From Planctomycetaceae bacterium (GTDB lineage Bacteria > Planctomycetota > Planctomycetia > Pirellulales > Pirellulaceae), in the NCBI GenBank assembly GCA_002724245.1, contig PBOG01000228.1, positions 1 to 48,379 of the forward strand: a stretch of 48,379 bases of DNA, written 5' to 3'. Position numbers and translations under genes: made by a program. Below are positions 19,003 through 26,754 of this stretch, one piece after another (position 1 is the first letter of the stretch; each line of letters starts with the position of its first letter). The notes beneath the pieces are model-generated. The model was given only the letters and a program-made list of their open reading frames with translations. It made no database searches and was not told the origin of the DNA.

Positions 19003-19222
19003 CTTGATCCCTGTCTTTCCGCATCTTCCAGATCTGCATCCTCGTCCAGGTCGACGTATTGAAACCGCCCGCTTGGCAGGTAGTTCGTTCTGGTGGACAC
19101 CGCAGCGGATCGTACTTTAACCTGACCGGGAAACGGAGAACACCGCCTATTGGCCGCCAGGCTGGCCAGCAAACTGGCTACACCCCTTGCACGAACCGCC
19201 TTGCTTTCGATCCAATGGAGAA

Positions 19223-20185
19223 ATGGAAACTCCCGCCATCCGCTGTCGCGAGCTGTTCAAGACCTACGCCGGGCGCCCTCCCGTCGAAGCAGTACGCGGC
19301 ATTGATATGACCGTTGCAGAAGGCGAGTGTTTTGGCGTGCTCGGCCCTAACGGGGCGGGAAAAACAACCACCATTGAAATCCTCGAAGGCCTGTTGCCCC
19401 AAACATCGGGTGAAGTCGAAATACTAGGCATGCAGTGGCAACACGCTGCCGAATCCATTCGCGAATCGATCGGCATTTCGCTTCAAGAAACCAGGTTTTC
19501 CGACAAGTTGAGTGTGCTGGAAACACTGACTCTGTTTCGCAGCTTCTATCGTGACGGCATCACCGTAAGCGAAGCCATCGAATGTGTCGGACTGGAAGAC
19601 AAAGCCCAAGCCTGGGTGAAAAATCTCTCTGGAGGACAACAGCAGCGGCTGGCAGTGGCAGCGGCGATTGTTGGCGACCCGCGACTGCTTTTCCTCGACG
19701 AACCGACGACCGGGCTGGACCCGCAGTCTCGACGACAGCTGTGGGACATCATCCGTCGCTACGGTGCCCAGGGACGCAGTGTTCTGTTAACGACCCATTA
19801 TATGGAAGAGGCGGAACAGCTCTGCGACCGGGTGGCCATCATCGACCATGGTAAGATCATCGCCCTGGGATCGCCGCGCGAACTGATCGCCCGCCTGGGC
19901 GGCGAACATGTCATTGAATTCACCCTGACACCCAATGCCACGACGTTGAATCAGCAAGAAAATGGCTGGACCCAGGTCAACCACGTCACCGGTTCCGTTT
20001 ACGAAGACGGCTGCCATCGCCTGACGGTTACCCAACCGCATCTGGTCATCCCCCAGATCCTGAGTCACGTCGAGCAAGCTGGTGCCCAACTGGCCAGTCT
20101 GACAACGCGGCATGCACGTCTGGAGGATGTGTTTGTCCAATTAACCGGTCGCCATCTGGATGACACGCTGGAGAAGCAGGCATGA
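19223..20185 (+). CDS. ABC transporter ATP-binding protein
   Basis: 320 aa. Walker A GPNGAGKTTT (41-50), Q-loop in ISLQETRFSDKLS, signature LSGGQQQR, Walker B LLFLDEPTTGLDP and the H-loop in TTHYMEEAEQL are intact. The C-terminal 90 residues are the extra domain of the DrrA/CcmA-type subfamily. The ATG at 19223 follows GGAGAA; a longer frame from 19187 is unlikely. It drives the membrane protein encoded next, whose start overlaps its stop by 4 bases. Confidence 0.93.
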   Translation: METPAIRCRELFKTYAGRPPVEAVRGIDMTVAEGECFGVLGPNGAGKTTTIEILEGLLPQTSGEVEILGMQWQHAAESIRESIGISLQETRFSDKLSVLETLTLFRSFYRDGITVSEAIECVGLEDKAQAWVKNLSGGQQQRLAVAAAIVGDPRLLFLDEPTTGLDPQSRRQLWDIIRRYGAQGRSVLLTTHYMEEAEQLCDRVAIIDHGKIIALGSPRELIARLGGEHVIEFTLTPNATTLNQQENGWTQVNHVTGSVYEDGCHRLTVTQPHLVIPQILSHVEQAGAQLASLTTRHARLEDVFVQLTGRHLDDTLEKQA

Positions 20186-21267
20186 ATCCCCCTGTCTCGG
20201 GCAACCGCCTGGCTCGACATCCAATGATGCAACTCGTACTGAGCCGCATGCGTGAATTCTGGCGGCAACCAGCCGCGGTGTTCTGGGTCTATGGCTTCCC
20301 CTTATTGATGATGGTCGCGCTGGGAACCGCTTTCCGCAATCGTCCGGTCGACAAGATTCCCGTGACCATCGTCGAGACGAGCGAGGCACCAGCGATCCTG
20401 AAAATTCTCCAGCAGGATGAACGGTTTATCGGTCCTGGTGGAGGCGTCGAAATCCTCTCACTAGAAGAATGCAAACAACGGCTGAGGACCGGCAAAACGC
20501 TGGTGATGATCTCCGCCAACGCGAGCCCGGATGCCGACTATACATTCACCTATGATCCCGAACGCCCGGGTAGCCTGGCCGCCCGGAACACGATCAACAA
20601 TCTCCTGCAAAAAGCCGGTGGACGGCTCGATCCGCTCACCGTCTCCAATAACGAAGTCCGTGAACCTGGTGGACGCTACATCGACTTTCTGGTCCCGGGC
20701 TTGCTGGGTATGGGCTTGATGGGCGGTGGAATGTGGGGAGTCGGCTTTGCCATTGTCAACCTGCGAATTCGCAAATTGCTGAAACGGTATCTGGCCACGC
20801 CCATGAAACGCAGTCATTTTCTCGGTTCGATGATGATAAGTCGTTTGTTATTCACTGTCACCGAAGTCTTAATCCTAGTACTAGGTGCGCGCTGGTTGTT
20901 TGGTGTGGTCAACCACGGATCCTTCCTGGCAGTCGCGCTGCTGGTCATCCTGGGCGCTTGTCAATTCGGTGGTATGGGTCTGCTGATTGCCAGTCGTGCT
21001 GAAACGACCGAAACCGTTTCTGGCCTGATGAATCTGGTGATGCTGCCTATGTGGATCGGATCCGGAGTGTTTTATTCGGTCGAACGTTTTCCCGCTGTGC
21101 TGCAGATGGTGCTTAATGCCTTGCCATTGACGCCCCTGATCTACAGTTTGCGCAGTGTCATGCAGGATGGCGCAAGTTTGCTCTCGCTACTCCCCCAGAT
21201 CGGCTTGATTTCCCTCTGGACGATCGTCACATTTGCTCTTGCCATGCGCTGGTTCCGCTGGCAATAG
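20182..21267 (+). CDS. ABC-2 type transporter permease
   Basis: 361 aa. One N-terminal TM (AAVFWVYGFPLLMMVALGTAF, about 33-53) is followed by an external loop of about 120 residues and then five TM segments from about 173 to 355, the usual ABC-2 export topology. ATGA overlap couples it to the ATPase gene upstream. The transported substrate cannot be read from the sequence; relatives export drugs, lipids or polysaccharides. Confidence 0.9.
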   Translation: MNPPVSGNRLARHPMMQLVLSRMREFWRQPAAVFWVYGFPLLMMVALGTAFRNRPVDKIPVTIVETSEAPAILKILQQDERFIGPGGGVEILSLEECKQRLRTGKTLVMISANASPDADYTFTYDPERPGSLAARNTINNLLQKAGGRLDPLTVSNNEVREPGGRYIDFLVPGLLGMGLMGGGMWGVGFAIVNLRIRKLLKRYLATPMKRSHFLGSMMISRLLFTVTEVLILVLGARWLFGVVNHGSFLAVALLVILGACQFGGMGLLIASRAETTETVSGLMNLVMLPMWIGSGVFYSVERFPAVLQMVLNALPLTPLIYSLRSVMQDGASLLSLLPQIGLISLWTIVTFALAMRWFRWQ

Positions 21268-21514: not shown

Positions 21515-23533
21515 ATGGAAACGAATGCCGTAGTTCGCCGGGGGCTGGTGGCTACGTTGATCCTGTGGGGACATCTCTGGACGCCACCGATTCGAGCGAC
21601 CACCGATACCCCGGCCAGTACAACCGCCAGCGAACTGGGAAAGGTAGTTGCTGAATTTGCCCTCGCCGACGTGGACGGAAAAACCCACCGGTTATCCGAT
21701 GTCCGAGATCAGCCGCTAGTCGTCATCGCTTTTCTCGGCACCGAATGTCCGCTCGCCAAACTGTACGGAACGCGACTCGCGGAACTGGCCCGCCACTACG
21801 AACCGCAGGGAGTCGTTTTCTTTGGTGTAAACTCCAACTGCCAGGATACGTTGCGGGAAATAGCAGCCTACGGACAACGCCACCAGATTCCGTTTCCCCT
21901 GCTGAAGGATGTTGGAAACCGGTTCGCTGACCAACTGCACGCCCAGCGGACACCCGAAGTGTTCGTCTTAGACCAACAGCGAAAGCTGCGGTACACCGGG
22001 CGGATTGACGACCAGTACAGCGTCGGCGTCAGCCGCGATCGGCCACAACAACAAGACCTTCGTGACGCCCTAGATGACCTGCTGGCGGGACGTACCGTAA
22101 GGCGACCCTGCACAGCAGCGGTAGGCTGTTACATCGGCCGCCTGCAGCAACCTCGCAAGAACGCGCCCGTCACTTACTCTCGACAAATTGCCAGGCTCTT
22201 TCAAAAGCACTGCGTGGAGTGCCACCGGGATGGAGAAATCGGACCCTTTTCACTCCTTCGCTACGACGATGTCGTGGGCTGGGCAGACACCATTGCGGAA
22301 GTCGTCGAGAGCCGTCGTATGCCACCCTGGCACGCCTCCCCGCGCCACGGTCAATTCCGTAATGCGCGGGTGATGACACCCGCAGAACGTCAACTGATCT
22401 TTCAATGGGTGCGTGATGGAGCACCCGAAGGGAATCCAGACGAGTTGCCAGCGCCACGGGTGTTTGTACCGGGCTGGAAGCTACCGACAACACCGGACCA
22501 AGTGATCGCAATGCGGGACACACCCTTCACTGTGCCCAGTCAGGGAACGGTCGAATACCAGTACTTCGTCGTCGATCCAGAGTTTACTGAGGATCGCTGG
22601 ATTTCCGCAGCCGAAGTCATCCCCGGAAATCGCAGCGTCGTGCACCATGTGATCGTCTTCTACCGACCTCCACGACGGACCCGCCGCGCCGGCATTGGCT
22701 GGCTTACCGCATACGTTCCAGGCCAAAGCACCCTCGGGTTGCCGGCCGGCCAGGCCAAACGCGTCCCGGCCGGTTCGCAACTAGTGTTCCAAATTCACTA
22801 CACGCCGAATGGCACTCGACAACAAGACCTCACCCGCGTGGGACTCACGTTTGTCGATCCCGAGTCGGTTCAGGAAGAGGTTTTCACATTGATCGGAATC
22901 AACCGCGACTTTGAGATTCCGCCACATGCCGACCGCCATCGCGTAACCATGATATTGGACAAATTCCCTGCCGATGCTCGGCTGCTGGCAATCGCGCCTC
23001 ACATGCATTTGCGCGGTCGGTCGTTTCGTTTCACAGCCCGCACAAGGGACCGACAGGAGGTCCTCCTGGACGTTTCCCAGTACGACTTCAATTGGCAACA
23101 CGCCTACAAATTTGTGAAGCCGCTCGAGTTGAAACCTGGCCTCGAAATTGAGTGTGTCGCTGAGTACGACAACTCCAAACAAAACCTGGTCAATCCCGAT
23201 CCCACCGCAACCGTTCGCTGGGGAGATCAAAGCTGGGAAGAAATGATGGTGGCCTATTTGGAAGTCGCCATTCCTCGCGATTCAGCGCAACCCGACCGAC
23301 GGAAAGAAACCGAACGTTCCCAGGCAGCGCAATTGCGAGCGCGACGACGGGCAACCCAGTTCCTGGAACGATTCGACAAGAATAATGACCGCCGAATCGA
23401 ACGTGACGAACTCCCCAAGGCAATGGCCCGTTTCGCCTTCGAACGTTTTGACCGAGACGGCAACCTGGTTATCGACGAAGCAGAGGTATTTCGCACTGCA
23501 CTGCAATCCAAACAGCAACGCAACGACCGCTGA
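21515..23533 (+). CDS. Redoxin / cytochrome c / copper monooxygenase / EF-hand fusion
   Basis: 672 aa with a signal segment (about 10-28). Domains in order: a thioredoxin-fold redoxin (about 42-190; FLGTECPLAKLYG with Cys78); a c-type cytochrome with C233-VEC-H237 (KHCVECHRDGEIGPFSL, RRMPPWHA); and a two-lobed type II copper monooxygenase. The last has HHVIVF (His377/378), QIHY (His428), HMHLRG (His496/498) and a Met in WEEMMVAY, matching the two copper sites of peptidylglycine monooxygenases. Two EF-hands (FDKNNDRRIERDEL, FDRDGNLVIDEAEVF) close the protein. It is presumably a periplasmic oxidative enzyme; substrate unknown. Module order is read directly, activity is inferred. Confidence 0.87.
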   Translation: METNAVVRRGLVATLILWGHLWTPPIRATTDTPASTTASELGKVVAEFALADVDGKTHRLSDVRDQPLVVIAFLGTECPLAKLYGTRLAELARHYEPQGVVFFGVNSNCQDTLREIAAYGQRHQIPFPLLKDVGNRFADQLHAQRTPEVFVLDQQRKLRYTGRIDDQYSVGVSRDRPQQQDLRDALDDLLAGRTVRRPCTAAVGCYIGRLQQPRKNAPVTYSRQIARLFQKHCVECHRDGEIGPFSLLRYDDVVGWADTIAEVVESRRMPPWHASPRHGQFRNARVMTPAERQLIFQWVRDGAPEGNPDELPAPRVFVPGWKLPTTPDQVIAMRDTPFTVPSQGTVEYQYFVVDPEFTEDRWISAAEVIPGNRSVVHHVIVFYRPPRRTRRAGIGWLTAYVPGQSTLGLPAGQAKRVPAGSQLVFQIHYTPNGTRQQDLTRVGLTFVDPESVQEEVFTLIGINRDFEIPPHADRHRVTMILDKFPADARLLAIAPHMHLRGRSFRFTARTRDRQEVLLDVSQYDFNWQHAYKFVKPLELKPGLEIECVAEYDNSKQNLVNPDPTATVRWGDQSWEEMMVAYLEVAIPRDSAQPDRRKETERSQAAQLRARRRATQFLERFDKNNDRRIERDELPKAMARFAFERFDRDGNLVIDEAEVFRTALQSKQQRNDR

Positions 23534-23627: not shown

Positions 23628-25877
23628 TTGGTTGATGTGGACCATCTCGCCTCGCTACTGATTCAACACCGACGCTTCGTCTGGGCAGGAATTCTCTGCT
23701 TGACAGGCCTTGCGTGCTACGGATTGCTGTACCACCCGCCACCGCAAGCGCCAGGCGGCCAGCAGGAAGGGGATGCCCTGCAGACGTCTGGGGCGTCGTT
23801 TGATCTGCCGCGACCAGACGCTCTGCTGGTCATCGAAGTCGAGAATTTGTTTGAACCCGCAACGGTGATCGCATTGCGTGCGATGGCAGCGGCTGTCGAA
23901 CAACTCGATTACGTAGCAACACTCAACTGGATTGATCGTATTCCGGTCTTGAATACGTTTGGGCTGGAGGACCCGCTACTACCACCCAACGACGCGTCCC
24001 AGGAACGATTTGCGCTCGCCCGACAAAAAGTCCTCCAGCACCCGGTGCTTGTTGGACAATTGATTTCCGCAGACGGACGAACGCTGCTGATGCCGGTCAC
24101 ATTTGACTGGCTGGCAGTGACCGATGATGCGGACTGCACCGAACAACTACTGCGTGTGGCTCGCGCTGCCATTGCCGACAGAGGTGGCTCCATCCGGGTT
24201 TCCCTGACCGGGCCCGTCCCCTTGTTCCTGGAACACGACGATGCGTTTCATCGCAATCGCCGAAAATTCCAGCTGATCGCCTACAGCCTGGTGATCGCGA
24301 TTTCCCTGTTCCTGTTTCGCAAACTCTCAACGGTACTGATCGTCTCCGCCGGTCCACTGCTGGGTGTCTTCTGGACTTGGGGCATCCTGAACTGGATGCA
24401 AGCGCTTTCCAACCCGTTGACCACCGTCGTCTTGCCCGTGCTGCTGACGATGATCGGAATGACCGATGGCCTGCACTTGATGGTCCACATCCGACGCCTC
24501 CGCAAGGAAGGGGCCACGCCCTTGCACGCCGCCCAGTTGTCCATCCAGCGGGTGGGAACCGCGTGCCTGCTGACCTCTGTGACAACCGCCATCGGTTTTG
24601 CGTCGCTGCTCCTTGCCCATAACGAATTTGTCCAGGGCTTTGGGCGCTCTTGCGCGATCGGTGCGATCCTAACATTAGTGGCAGTGATCACCGTCATCCC
24701 GCTGGCCAGTGTGACTCGATTAGGGCGTTTCGTCCATCACGGCCATGGGCATCGGCTGGTCGACCAGGGCCTCCAGAAGTTAACCTGGCTGGTCGATTCG
24801 TTGATCCACCGGCCACGTCAAATCAGCCTGCTGGGAATCGTGCTGACACTGGCGCTGGCAGCTATCTGTTCGACGCTCCGCCCGGACAACCGTACCCGGG
24901 ACGCCCAGCCTACGGGAAGTCCGGCCTACGCCGCGCTGGCGCATTGCGATCGGGAATTGGGTGGGATTGAACTGGTTCATGTGGTCATGCATTGGCCCGA
25001 TTCGATCCCTCATGATTCCGGTCAGATCATGCAAGCACTCCTATCAGTCGAAACGCTTATTGATCGCGAACAACCACTTCTGCAGTTTCCGCTGTCGATC
25101 CGCAACCTGCTCGATTCAATTCCTGCCAACGCGCCACTGGAGCAGCAGATGCCACTGTTAAGCCTGCTTCCCGATTCAATCCTGCAGCCGTACTACAACA
25201 CCACGTCCCGAAAAGCGCGGATCACAGTCCGCATCAGTGATTTAGGAATCGCCCGCTACGAAACTGTATTTCGCCGCCTGGAGAAAGACTTTAGTAAGCT
25301 CGCAACAGAGTACCCGGGATTTCATTTTTCCCTGGAAGGCGAGCCCGTCGAACGCGGCCGCGCGCTGCAAGAAATCGTCACAGATCTGGCTGCCAGTCTG
25401 GGAACCGCCTCGGTCATCATTCTGATCGTCATGACCGTTGTCTATCGCTCCCTGCGCGTTGGCTTGATCACGATTGTTCCCAATCTCTTTCCGCTGGCTG
25501 TCACGGGTAGCATGTTGGTCATGATGGGTTGGCCTCTCAACGTCGCCAGCGTCTGTTCTTTCGTCGTCTGCCTGGGAATCGCGGTAGATGACACGATCCA
25601 CTTTCTAACCCGCTACGGCTACGAACGCGCGGAGGGACAATCTACGCCCACAGCCATTCGCAGCGCTTTTGTTCACGTCGGAACCGCACTCATCTTGACC
25701 ACGTTGATCCTGGTAGCAGGTTTCAGTACGGTTTTGACCAGTGATCTGGCAATCCAGCGCAGTTTTGCTGCGATGGCGTGCTCCACGATTCTCGCGGCTC
25801 TGGTGGGCGACTTGATCTTTCTGCCGGCAATGCTGATGTGGTGGGATCGCAAGCGGCCCGACCCGGGCGATTCTTGA
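23628..25877 (+). CDS. RND/MMPL-family exporter
   Basis: About 749 aa. A first TM (FVWAGILCLTGLACYGLLY) precedes a periplasmic domain; then come a block of five or more TM segments with the motif GMTDGLHLMVHIRRL, a second periplasmic domain, and a second TM block with GIAVDDTIHFLTRYGYER, the Asp pair expected for proton coupling. This is the two-fold MMPL arrangement of hydrophobe exporters. No ATG is available: an in-frame TGA lies at 23619-23621, so translation must start at the TTG at 23628 or the GTG at 23637, neither with a clear ribosome-binding site. No adaptor or outer-membrane partner is adjacent. Confidence 0.88.
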   Translation: MVDVDHLASLLIQHRRFVWAGILCLTGLACYGLLYHPPPQAPGGQQEGDALQTSGASFDLPRPDALLVIEVENLFEPATVIALRAMAAAVEQLDYVATLNWIDRIPVLNTFGLEDPLLPPNDASQERFALARQKVLQHPVLVGQLISADGRTLLMPVTFDWLAVTDDADCTEQLLRVARAAIADRGGSIRVSLTGPVPLFLEHDDAFHRNRRKFQLIAYSLVIAISLFLFRKLSTVLIVSAGPLLGVFWTWGILNWMQALSNPLTTVVLPVLLTMIGMTDGLHLMVHIRRLRKEGATPLHAAQLSIQRVGTACLLTSVTTAIGFASLLLAHNEFVQGFGRSCAIGAILTLVAVITVIPLASVTRLGRFVHHGHGHRLVDQGLQKLTWLVDSLIHRPRQISLLGIVLTLALAAICSTLRPDNRTRDAQPTGSPAYAALAHCDRELGGIELVHVVMHWPDSIPHDSGQIMQALLSVETLIDREQPLLQFPLSIRNLLDSIPANAPLEQQMPLLSLLPDSILQPYYNTTSRKARITVRISDLGIARYETVFRRLEKDFSKLATEYPGFHFSLEGEPVERGRALQEIVTDLAASLGTASVIILIVMTVVYRSLRVGLITIVPNLFPLAVTGSMLVMMGWPLNVASVCSFVVCLGIAVDDTIHFLTRYGYERAEGQSTPTAIRSAFVHVGTALILTTLILVAGFSTVLTSDLAIQRSFAAMACSTILAALVGDLIFLPAMLMWWDRKRPDPGDS

Positions 25878-25968
25878 CAGCCTTTCGGCCGCCCCTTTCA
25901 ATAGTTACTCATGTTCACCCATTGTGACACCGGCACTAGGCTTCCAGGAATTCTGCAGGACAATACGC

Positions 25969-26754
25969 ATGGCTCTCAGGACGTGTTCTCTCTGTTTTGC
26001 TGGTTTGTGTCTGCTGCTGGCATGGGTGCCCCCTCTGCCAGGAGAGCAGCCAAACCAATTGACGTCTGCAGAACGCGCAGCCGGATTTCGCCTGTTATTC
26101 GATGGCAAGTCCTTCAACGGCTGGAAACAACAGGGAAATTGGACCATCGTCGAACAAGCCCTCTACCGCGGGCGCGGCGGCGGCGGACTGACCTGCGTGG
26201 CTCAGCAAATCCCCGACGACTTCGAATTGCGGTTTCAATGGAAAGTCGCGCGGGGCAGCAATAGTGGGGTGTACTACCGACCCGGCCAGTATGAGTACCA
26301 GATTCTCGACAATGCAGTACACATCGACGGCAAGAACCCACGGACCAGCGCCGCTTCCCTCTATTTCTGTATGGCACCATCGCGGGATGTAACACGACCC
26401 GTAGGAAAGTGGAACGATGGACGCATAGTCTGTCAGGGGTCCATTATCCAGCACTGGCTCAACGGCCAGAAAGTGATCGACTTTGACTACACCGACAAAC
26501 GCTGGTCACAGCCGGTCGCACTGCTCAAGAAACGCGGCGGCACTTTGTCAGCGCGCGGACGAGCGCTGTTTCTGCAGGACCACGGAGACCCGGTCTGGTA
26601 CCGCACCATCCGCCTGCGGACGATTCCCAAGGCAGAAACAATCCCACACCAAACCGTGCAGCCAGCGCTCATTCCACCCGAAATCCGCAAAGCTGAAGAG
26701 GAAAAACTACGCCGCATTATCGAAAACCGACGCCGTCAGAAAGCGGCCCCCTAG
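25969..26754 (+). CDS. DUF1080 (3-keto-disaccharide hydrolase-like) protein
   Basis: 261 aa starting at the ATG after GCAGGA, which begins a signal peptide (MALRTCSLCFAGLCLLLAWVPPLPG). The DUF1080 LamG-like fold is evident: FRLLFDGKSFNGWKQQGNWTIVEQALYRG, DFELRFQWKVARGSNSGVYYR, YEYQILDN and IQHWLNGQKVIDFD. Family members hydrolyse 3-keto-glycosides or bind glycans in the periplasm. A 25-residue basic tail (RKAEEEKLRRIIENRRRQKAAP) extends past the domain. It starts about 90 bases after the RND gene on the same strand. Confidence 0.87.
   Translation: MALRTCSLCFAGLCLLLAWVPPLPGEQPNQLTSAERAAGFRLLFDGKSFNGWKQQGNWTIVEQALYRGRGGGGLTCVAQQIPDDFELRFQWKVARGSNSGVYYRPGQYEYQILDNAVHIDGKNPRTSAASLYFCMAPSRDVTRPVGKWNDGRIVCQGSIIQHWLNGQKVIDFDYTDKRWSQPVALLKKRGGTLSARGRALFLQDHGDPVWYRTIRLRTIPKAETIPHQTVQPALIPPEIRKAEEEKLRRIIENRRRQKAAP

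Follow-up and report, generated by a model that had tools for sequence, protein, structure and literature searches.

The 672-residue protein encoded at positions 21,515–23,533 (+ strand, ATG start) of the planctomycete DNA analysed here is probably a secreted, cytochrome-fed dicopper monooxygenase of PHM/DBM-like type, whose substrate would be a hydrophobic molecule of the periplasm connected with an RND pump. This reading builds on the domains and ligands of the protein, its predicted fold, the co-conservation of its heme and copper sites and the pairing of its gene with that of the pump. More tentatively, and in our estimate at somewhat less than even chance, the protein represents a planctomycete family of PHM/DBM-type monooxygenases that need no ascorbate and are self-sufficient through a tethered heme c as built-in reductant; one clade of it would form a dedicated oxygenase and RND unit that oxidises, at the periplasmic face, an apolar molecule other than a hopanoid. 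The parts are known; for the nearly fixed heme c-dicopper unit across the phylum and for the RND pairing, no description was found. Among the literature matches listed, with most subscription papers outside the scope, no planctomycete or cytochrome-fused PHM is described. Such a family would offer a PHM-like enzyme possibly free of ascorbate, in which the cytochrome fused beside the copper core provides an optical handle (the heme redox state) on electron entry, and the conserved pump is a concrete lead to the substrate.

Domain organisation

The window, meaning the whole 48,379-nucleotide stretch analysed, lies in contig C197 of a 7.79 Mb genome (287 contigs, 98.8% complete). The nearest public relative of the ORF, from a Planctomycetaceae bacterium (L010), shows 89% amino acid identity, and dN/dS between the two is 0.13. 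A sequence-only reading had described a five-module redox protein at this place, and this layout is confirmed: a redoxin, a heme c domain, a dicopper core and two EF-hand loops follow one another in a single chain. They are preceded by a signal-like segment (residues 1–29; 21,515–21,601, + strand), judged by eye from its basic start, the hydrophobic GLVATLILWGHLW and the small residues thereafter, which is unfolded and of low confidence in the AlphaFold2 model. The whole-chain model, built from 79 sequences, has a mean pLDDT of 88.2 and a pTM of 0.80, the latter suggesting a defined packing of the domains.

The dicopper core

Residues 338–591 (22,526–23,287, + strand) are assigned to a dicopper core like that of the PHM/DBM superfamily (Pfam PF01082/PF03712, clan CL0612) by fold match and invariant ligands. 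In the predicted model, residues 327–591 superpose on PHM 3mlj with a Z of 22.0 (VIA) and an rmsd of 2.4 Å over 246 residues, the Foldseek match to PHM 3mll has an E of 6.7e-13, and human DBH is matched with a Z of 19.8 and an rmsd of 4.0 Å. The sequence similarity is weak, which counts against our preferred reading. The Pfam family Cu2_monoox_C matches residues 489–582 with 17.9 bits in the whole protein and 20.4 bits in the domain alone, short of the curated cut-off of 23; among 40 relatives, 27 match this family at E≤0.01 (best 2.3e-6) and none matches PF01082 at the same threshold. A copper-domain profile run against the PDB returns DBH at a weak E of 0.14 together with two unrelated chains, while with a full-length profile no PHM or DBH is found among the best 60 of 396 matches, a list filled by redoxin and EF-hand matches.

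The profile alignment to DBH places three groups of His residues, the His-His pair, that of HY and the two of HxH, on HH, HY and HTH of DBH, so that five of the six ligands align; it stops before the Met, and M577 lies inside the Cu2_monoox_C match. For DBH itself, the structural report gives H262/H263/H333 and H412/H414/M487 as copper ligands (PMC4846438). The putative CuH ligands of the window protein are H377 and H378 (22,643–22,648) and H428 (22,796–22,798), and the putative CuM ligands are H496 (23,000–23,002), H498 (23,006–23,008) and M577 (23,243–23,245), all on the + strand. Their conservation was followed in a first set drawn from a genome-contig scan, which confirmed 218 relatives and from which the best 80 were kept, all titled as planctomycete taxa or as 'bacterium'. 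Together with the query and a paralogue in the same genome (L004) these make 82 aligned rows, with three copies of the same two genes (L001–L003) omitted. Twelve residues are identical in all 82 rows: the redoxin cysteines C78 and C205, the heme residues C233, C236, H237 and M269, and the six copper ligands H377, H378, H428, H496, H498 and M577. Both copper sites and the heme site are thus complete, as the sequence-only reading had held. Other His and Met residues of the copper domain vary (H471, H475, H529, M479 and M578), and M497, which is no predicted ligand, is likewise invariant. In a 79-row alignment (A1) all twelve fall among 58 invariant columns, with a chance probability of about 6e-14 by a simple hypergeometric calculation over 672 positions that ignores the commoner conservation of Cys, His, Trp and Gly columns. 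Taken together, the predicted fold and the intact ligands support a two-lobed jelly-roll, PHM/DBM-like dicopper core.

The very low identity to known enzymes (about 16%), the C-terminal EF-hands and the large N-terminal assembly would also suit a degenerate, non-catalytic PHM-fold protein with a structural or binding role. This we consider highly improbable, as the six copper ligands are invariant while H471, H475 and H529 drift (the non-ligand M497 being invariant as well), and the dN/dS of the ORF is low.

The preferred reading, an active PHM/DBM-like enzyme, is specified further by comparison with the animal proteins. With PHM (PDB 1OPM, 3MLJ) the planctomycete core shares the two-lobed fold, a CuH site of three His, a CuM site of two His and one Met, and the positions read as Q170 and Q272, at an identity of only about 16–17%. 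The last two are Q426 and Q528, read by eye from weak alignments with an actinomycete relative as bridge; of 156 rows, 142 have Gln at 426 and 13 have Glu there, while all 156 have Gln at 528. The PHM study places Q170 and Q272 in a network of waters that also involves H108 and the substrate (PMC6123673). Unlike PHM, the planctomycete core is fused to a heme c, and no ascorbate dependence is known for it. The PHM domain carries disulfides, which have no counterpart here, the single Cys of the planctomycete copper domain (C547) being not conserved. The position matching PHM R240, which we take to be the contact to the peptide carboxylate, is Ala494 in the window protein and Arg in one of 156 rows. 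A peptidylglycine is therefore an unlikely substrate, and since both the R240 counterpart and the disulfides are absent the protein is not filed as PHM. Human DBH (4ZEL) has the same core, but DOMON and dimerisation domains, according to its structural report, where the planctomycete protein has a cytochrome c, a redoxin and EF-hands (PMC4846438); the protein is filed as neither PHM nor DBM.

Heme c and copper as a conserved unit

The heme c domain (residues 215–322; 22,157–22,480, + strand) carries CVECH at 22,211–22,225 and the axial Met M269 at 22,319–22,321, and the signature C233-x-x-C236-H237 with this distal Met is present in all 82 rows. Cytochrome_CBB3 (PF13442) matches residues 223–274 with 23.2 bits in the whole protein and with 27.2 bits, against a cut-off of 27, when the heme domain is scanned alone; all 60 relatives scanned match it at E≤0.01. 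Modelled alone, the domain has a pLDDT of 87.7. Foldseek gives no match to this model at E below 1.5, and the six entries listed at a Z of at least 2 are all heme c proteins, the best being the monoheme PccH (Z 6.5), a weak match that proves little alone. The cytochrome c peroxidase YhjA is among these weak matches (Z 5.2).

In order to follow the two sites beyond the close relatives, a wider set of 158 rows was assembled from the query, the 80 relatives, 29 sequences of a phylum survey, 47 chosen for variant architectures and one actinomycete sequence (L119), L001–L004 being omitted. All twelve residues are kept in 147 of these rows, and the full heme and copper ligand sets in 156. The two exceptions, which speak against the preferred reading, are L119, the one actinomycete copper core without heme found in a search of plasmid records, and the planctomycete ORF at 745–1896 of L120, which has the heme while its copper ligands are lost.

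Because the first scan used peptide patterns that included the heme motif and the M577 region, the test was repeated with a profile of the copper domain only (A2). The PHM-type core, best known from animal hormone-making enzymes, was detected in this way in 28 of 89 sampled planctomycete genomes (E≤1e-6). Copper-domain ORFs numbering 41 were then read in 40 regions (35 from the A2 survey and five from a second genome scan, with places already examined omitted). All 41 have the six copper ligands, and, although they were gathered without the heme domain, 40 of them have a CxxCH domain directly in front; the remaining one, L186, is a 340-residue ORF with the PHM part only and likewise counts against the preferred reading. 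In one of the 41 sequences, L179, the M269 column of the alignment holds a Leu, though an MPP motif is present. Heme c and dicopper core thus form a nearly fixed unit in Planctomycetota, in which the redoxin is optional. Such co-conservation is expected if the heme feeds the coppers, and it supports the earlier suggestion of electron transfer from heme to copper; the direction of flow is not fixed by co-conservation.

Redoxin and EF-hands

The redoxin or thioredoxin-like domain (residues 42–207; 21,638–22,135, + strand) is matched by AhpC-TSA of Pfam at residues 42–160 (E 1.4e-17), and residues 37–212 of the predicted model superpose on 3u5r and 2cvb with Z of 26.0 and 25.6. It shares the fold and the C78/C205 cysteine pair with the stand-alone thioredoxin-like proteins 3U5R, 2CVB and 2YWI, from which it differs in being fused to heme and copper domains. 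A thiol-redox domain had been proposed in front of the heme; the Pfam match and the invariant cysteine pair bear out the domain and its thiols, while a CxxC motif is lacking, C78 (21,746–21,748) being paired with the far-off C205 (22,127–22,129).

The same reading had named a thiol as one source of electrons. In its strict form the redoxin thiols would be the physiological donor, passing electrons from thiol to heme to CuH to CuM within one chain, and the fusion itself, the invariance of C78 and C205 in the 82 close family rows and the defined domain packing suggested by the pTM would all agree with such a route. A redoxin match is found, however, in only 24 of the 41 ORFs gathered by their copper domain alone. 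Among the 17 others, one lies at a contig edge (L160) and one has stops in the wider match (L167), leaving about 15 clear cases; heme c and the dicopper core are thus near-constant, and the thiol domain is optional. The cysteines can also be lost while the domain stays. In three genomes of one genus (L128, L129, L130), three such genes lie head to tail: the first copies have C78 and lack C205, the second have neither, position 78 being Asp, and the third have both. One or both redoxin cysteines are hence gone in six of nine tandem copies, in all of which the heme and copper ligands are intact, which argues against a thiol step through the redoxin being indispensable in every chain. The transfer from a two-electron thiol to a one-electron heme is, moreover, chemically awkward, and CxxC is absent. 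The thiol as electron source is weakened by these findings to the point of being unlikely. The redoxin is better seen as a lineage-specific add-on, which may protect against peroxide or handle disulfides.

The C-terminus holds two EF-hand loops, at residues 621–632 (DKNNDRRIERDE; 23,375–23,410, + strand) and 646–657 (DRDGNLVIDEAE; 23,450–23,485, + strand). EF-hand_6 of Pfam matches residues 616–638 at 24.7 bits against a cut-off of 25, and both loops show the expected pattern of acidic residues or Asn at positions 1, 3 and 5 and Glu at 12 (D621/N623/D625/E632 and D646/D648/N650/E657). Among rows with the EF region, D621 is conserved in 76 of 77 and E632, D646 and E657 in 75 of 76 each. The proposal of calcium-binding loops behind the copper core stands as far as these key positions go; the usual Gly at loop position 6 is absent from both loops of the window protein (R626 and L651), and several branches of the family have no EF-hands. 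The EF-hands are thus another lineage-specific add-on, which may stabilise or dock the protein.

Proposed electron route

For the steps that we infer from this pattern, namely export, loading with heme and copper, the direction of electron flow, monooxygenase activity and a hydrophobic substrate, the following scheme would fit. The protein would be exported by means of its signal-like N-terminus and matured with heme c and two coppers. A periplasmic reductant would reduce the heme c, which would pass single electrons to CuH (H377/H378/H428) and on to CuM (H496/H498/M577), where O2 would be bound and a C-H bond hydroxylated. The tethered cytochrome would in this way replace ascorbate, which in the account of DBH delivers two electrons, with CuH as the suggested electron-transfer site (PMC4846438). 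That a heme c can supply electrons to a secreted bacterial copper monooxygenase has been described for the cytochrome domain of Cellvibrio Cbp2D (CjX183), which according to the report drives an LPMO in place of ascorbate and with less peroxide than ascorbate gives (PMC8981238). LPMOs are, however, monocopper enzymes and unrelated, and in that system cytochrome domain and LPMO are separate proteins. In the clade of the window protein, the enzyme and its HAE3-like RND transporter would act as a two-gene unit, the pump delivering or removing the hydrophobic substrate or product. A further parallel is the copper nitrite reductase of three domains, in which a cytochrome c is fused to the enzyme.

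Pairing with an RND transporter

The next gene (23,628–25,877, + strand) encodes a transporter of 749 amino acids that matches MMPL with 95.4 bits (cut-off 20.5, E 4.1e-27) and the HAE3 model TIGR00921 with 174.3 bits (E 3.2e-51), the cut-off of 351.9 being not reached. As the MMPL cut-off is passed and that of TIGR00921 missed, we name it an HAE3-like MMPL transporter. The HpnN model TIGR03480 gives 87.1 bits against a cut-off of 751.85; among proteins of solved structure, the one nearest to this transporter is HpnN (E 1.8e-9), which transports hopanoids. According to the literature, transport by HAE3 pumps is directed into the periplasm, and HpnN and AmeD, a monoterpene pump, are characterised examples (PMC6394551); the sterol transporter BstA is reported to be likewise HpnN-like (PMC10942540). 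The partner gene resembles these pumps in being MMPL/HAE3-like, and it differs in falling below both the HAE3 and the HpnN cut-offs, in its length of about 750 amino acids and in being paired with a copper oxygenase and not with ame genes. As pumps of the HAE3-like type are described as moving their substrates into the periplasm, the substrate or product is probably hydrophobic, and delivered or removed by the pump.

The pairing extends well beyond the window. Nine of the 80 loci end less than 1.5 kb downstream; in 55 of the 71 that can be tested, an RND gene is next on the same strand, the distance between the two ORFs ranging from −127 to +383 nt. In the wider set, the forms with EF-hands comprise 64 paired with RND, 44 that lack the partner despite 900 nt or more of downstream sequence, and three too short, while none of 42 forms without EF-hands is paired and four are too short. 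When a tree of the heme-copper core is built with FastTree and rooted on L119, the 65 RND-paired sequences (window included) all fall in one clade of 79, which also holds 11 unpaired and three too short; its node support is 0.49 only, that of the 104-tip clade above it is 1.0, and that of the 25-tip sister clade is 0.91. This sister clade has EF-hands too, and none of its 25 members is paired with RND. A further comparison covered 40 whole genomes, a non-random choice that mostly favoured genomes with family members. An RND orthologue (E≤2.6e-172) is present in 21 of them, directly downstream of the family gene in 20; in the last, G274, it and the two copper-domain genes lie on different contigs. 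In ten of the 40 genomes the best match to the query extends into the EF-hands and there is no RND match at E≤1e-30 (G087, G121, G205, G283, G321, G327, G333, G339, G365 and G381). Since pairing is confined to one clade and lacking elsewhere, the pump goes with the clade of the window protein. The window genome has a second RND gene, 39% identical, on contig C19, on which the copper-domain profile finds no match. This gene, and the unpaired branches with the same core, imply that the pump is not bound exclusively to this chemistry. That these branches share the core, that 11 members of the paired clade lack an adjacent RND gene and that the pump falls below the HAE3 cut-off are further points against the preferred reading.

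A hopanoid or sterol substrate was considered, with the RND partner as hopanoid carrier and the oxygenase as hopanoid hydroxylase. Of the solved proteins, HpnN is indeed the one closest to the pump, potential hopanoid production has been described for relatives of Gemmata, a sterol maker (PMC6606645), and cyclase-superfamily proteins are present in the window genome (best PF13243 score 97.7 bits). The pump is, however, far below the HpnN cut-off, and the distribution of hopene cyclase does not follow that of the pump. A match to the hopene cyclase model is found in 36 of the 40 chosen genomes, and those without the RND gene frequently have one, whereas at E≤1e-30 there is none in three of the 21 with the RND orthologue: the window genome (23 of 26 first-look candidates scored), G274 and G344. 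The best PF13243 scores of these three (98, 76 and 80 bits, respectively) are far below the 371 bits of the G291 cyclase; G291 has a weaker member of 83 bits as well, and the matches in the three genomes thus look like other cyclase-like proteins. The hopanoid substrate was therefore set aside as very unlikely, and as the hopene cyclase model has no match at E≤1e-30 in the window genome we regard another apolar molecule as the probable substrate.

The pump bears as well on a role in stress or metal handling, in which the copper sites would react with peroxide, or bind and oxidise copper, with the redoxin as a peroxidase arm and without hydroxylation of a substrate. Such a role would accord with the peroxidase-like redoxin in front and with the weak fold match between the heme domain and YhjA. 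We hold it to be improbable, if a little less so than a thiol donor: two separate PHM/DBM-type copper sites are preserved, together with the residues read as counterparts of Q170 and Q272, the redoxin is dispensable, and the CusA/CzcA metal model matches the linked pump far less well than the MMPL/HAE3 models do.

The remaining neighbours of the gene are less constant. For the ABC permease upstream, matches are confined to L010 and L011, the two nearest relatives. An all-against-all comparison of ORFs of at least 150 residues from the 80 loci recovers the enzyme, the RND gene and groups of opposite-strand ORFs, with other groups in at most 12 loci; the opposite-strand groups are taken for antisense shadows.

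Paralogues, neighbouring genes and hopene cyclase

The genome of the window encodes a second member of the redoxin-heme c-PHM/DBM-like family (L159, G000:C108:21216-22985), which is 48% identical to the window protein and gives no EF-hand match, and around which the MMPL/HAE3-like RND gene is absent in the 9 kb read. The same genome also holds another RND gene of this kind, 39% identical to the one in the window (G000:C19:31649-33805), and no copper-domain match was found on its contig. In the window, the family gene is immediately preceded by a drug/lipid-type ABC transporter comprising ATPase and permease (19187-21267, + strand), and a 3-keto-disaccharide hydrolase (PF06439) domain protein is encoded downstream of the RND gene (25924-26754, + strand). 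Of the 80 loci compared, the best of 218 confirmed relatives, none but the two closest relatives gave a match to the ABC permease. A hopene cyclase match (E<=1e-30), bearing on a hopanoid substrate, was found in 36 of the 40 genomes compared; at this threshold none was found in the entire genome from which the window comes or in three other planctomycete genomes (G274, G307 and G344), and the cyclase-like proteins of the hopene-cyclase-negative genomes are weaker ones only.

Tandem copies and architectural variants

Three genomes of one genus each carry three redoxin-heme-PHM genes arranged head to tail, with overlapping stop-to-stop ORFs (L128:2755-8333, +; L129:85-5486, -; L130:3196-8627, +). 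Two of the three copies in each triplet have lost one or both redoxin cysteines, while the heme and copper ligands are intact in every copy, and the products perhaps form a hetero-oligomer. Elsewhere the copper domain is matched as two separate pieces (L126:3103-5127, L127:3089-5488 and L174:1468-3516), as if a segment of ~35-45 residues had been inserted. The predicted calcium module shifts position among family members, EF-hand matches lying N-terminal to the redoxin and replacing or adding to those after the copper domain (L131:3518-5782, L172:1099-3360 and L194:591-2477). One member retains the heme with the copper ligands gone (L120:745-1896, -) and another the copper core with the heme domain missing (L186:2459-3478, +); these could be frameshifts or genuine variants.
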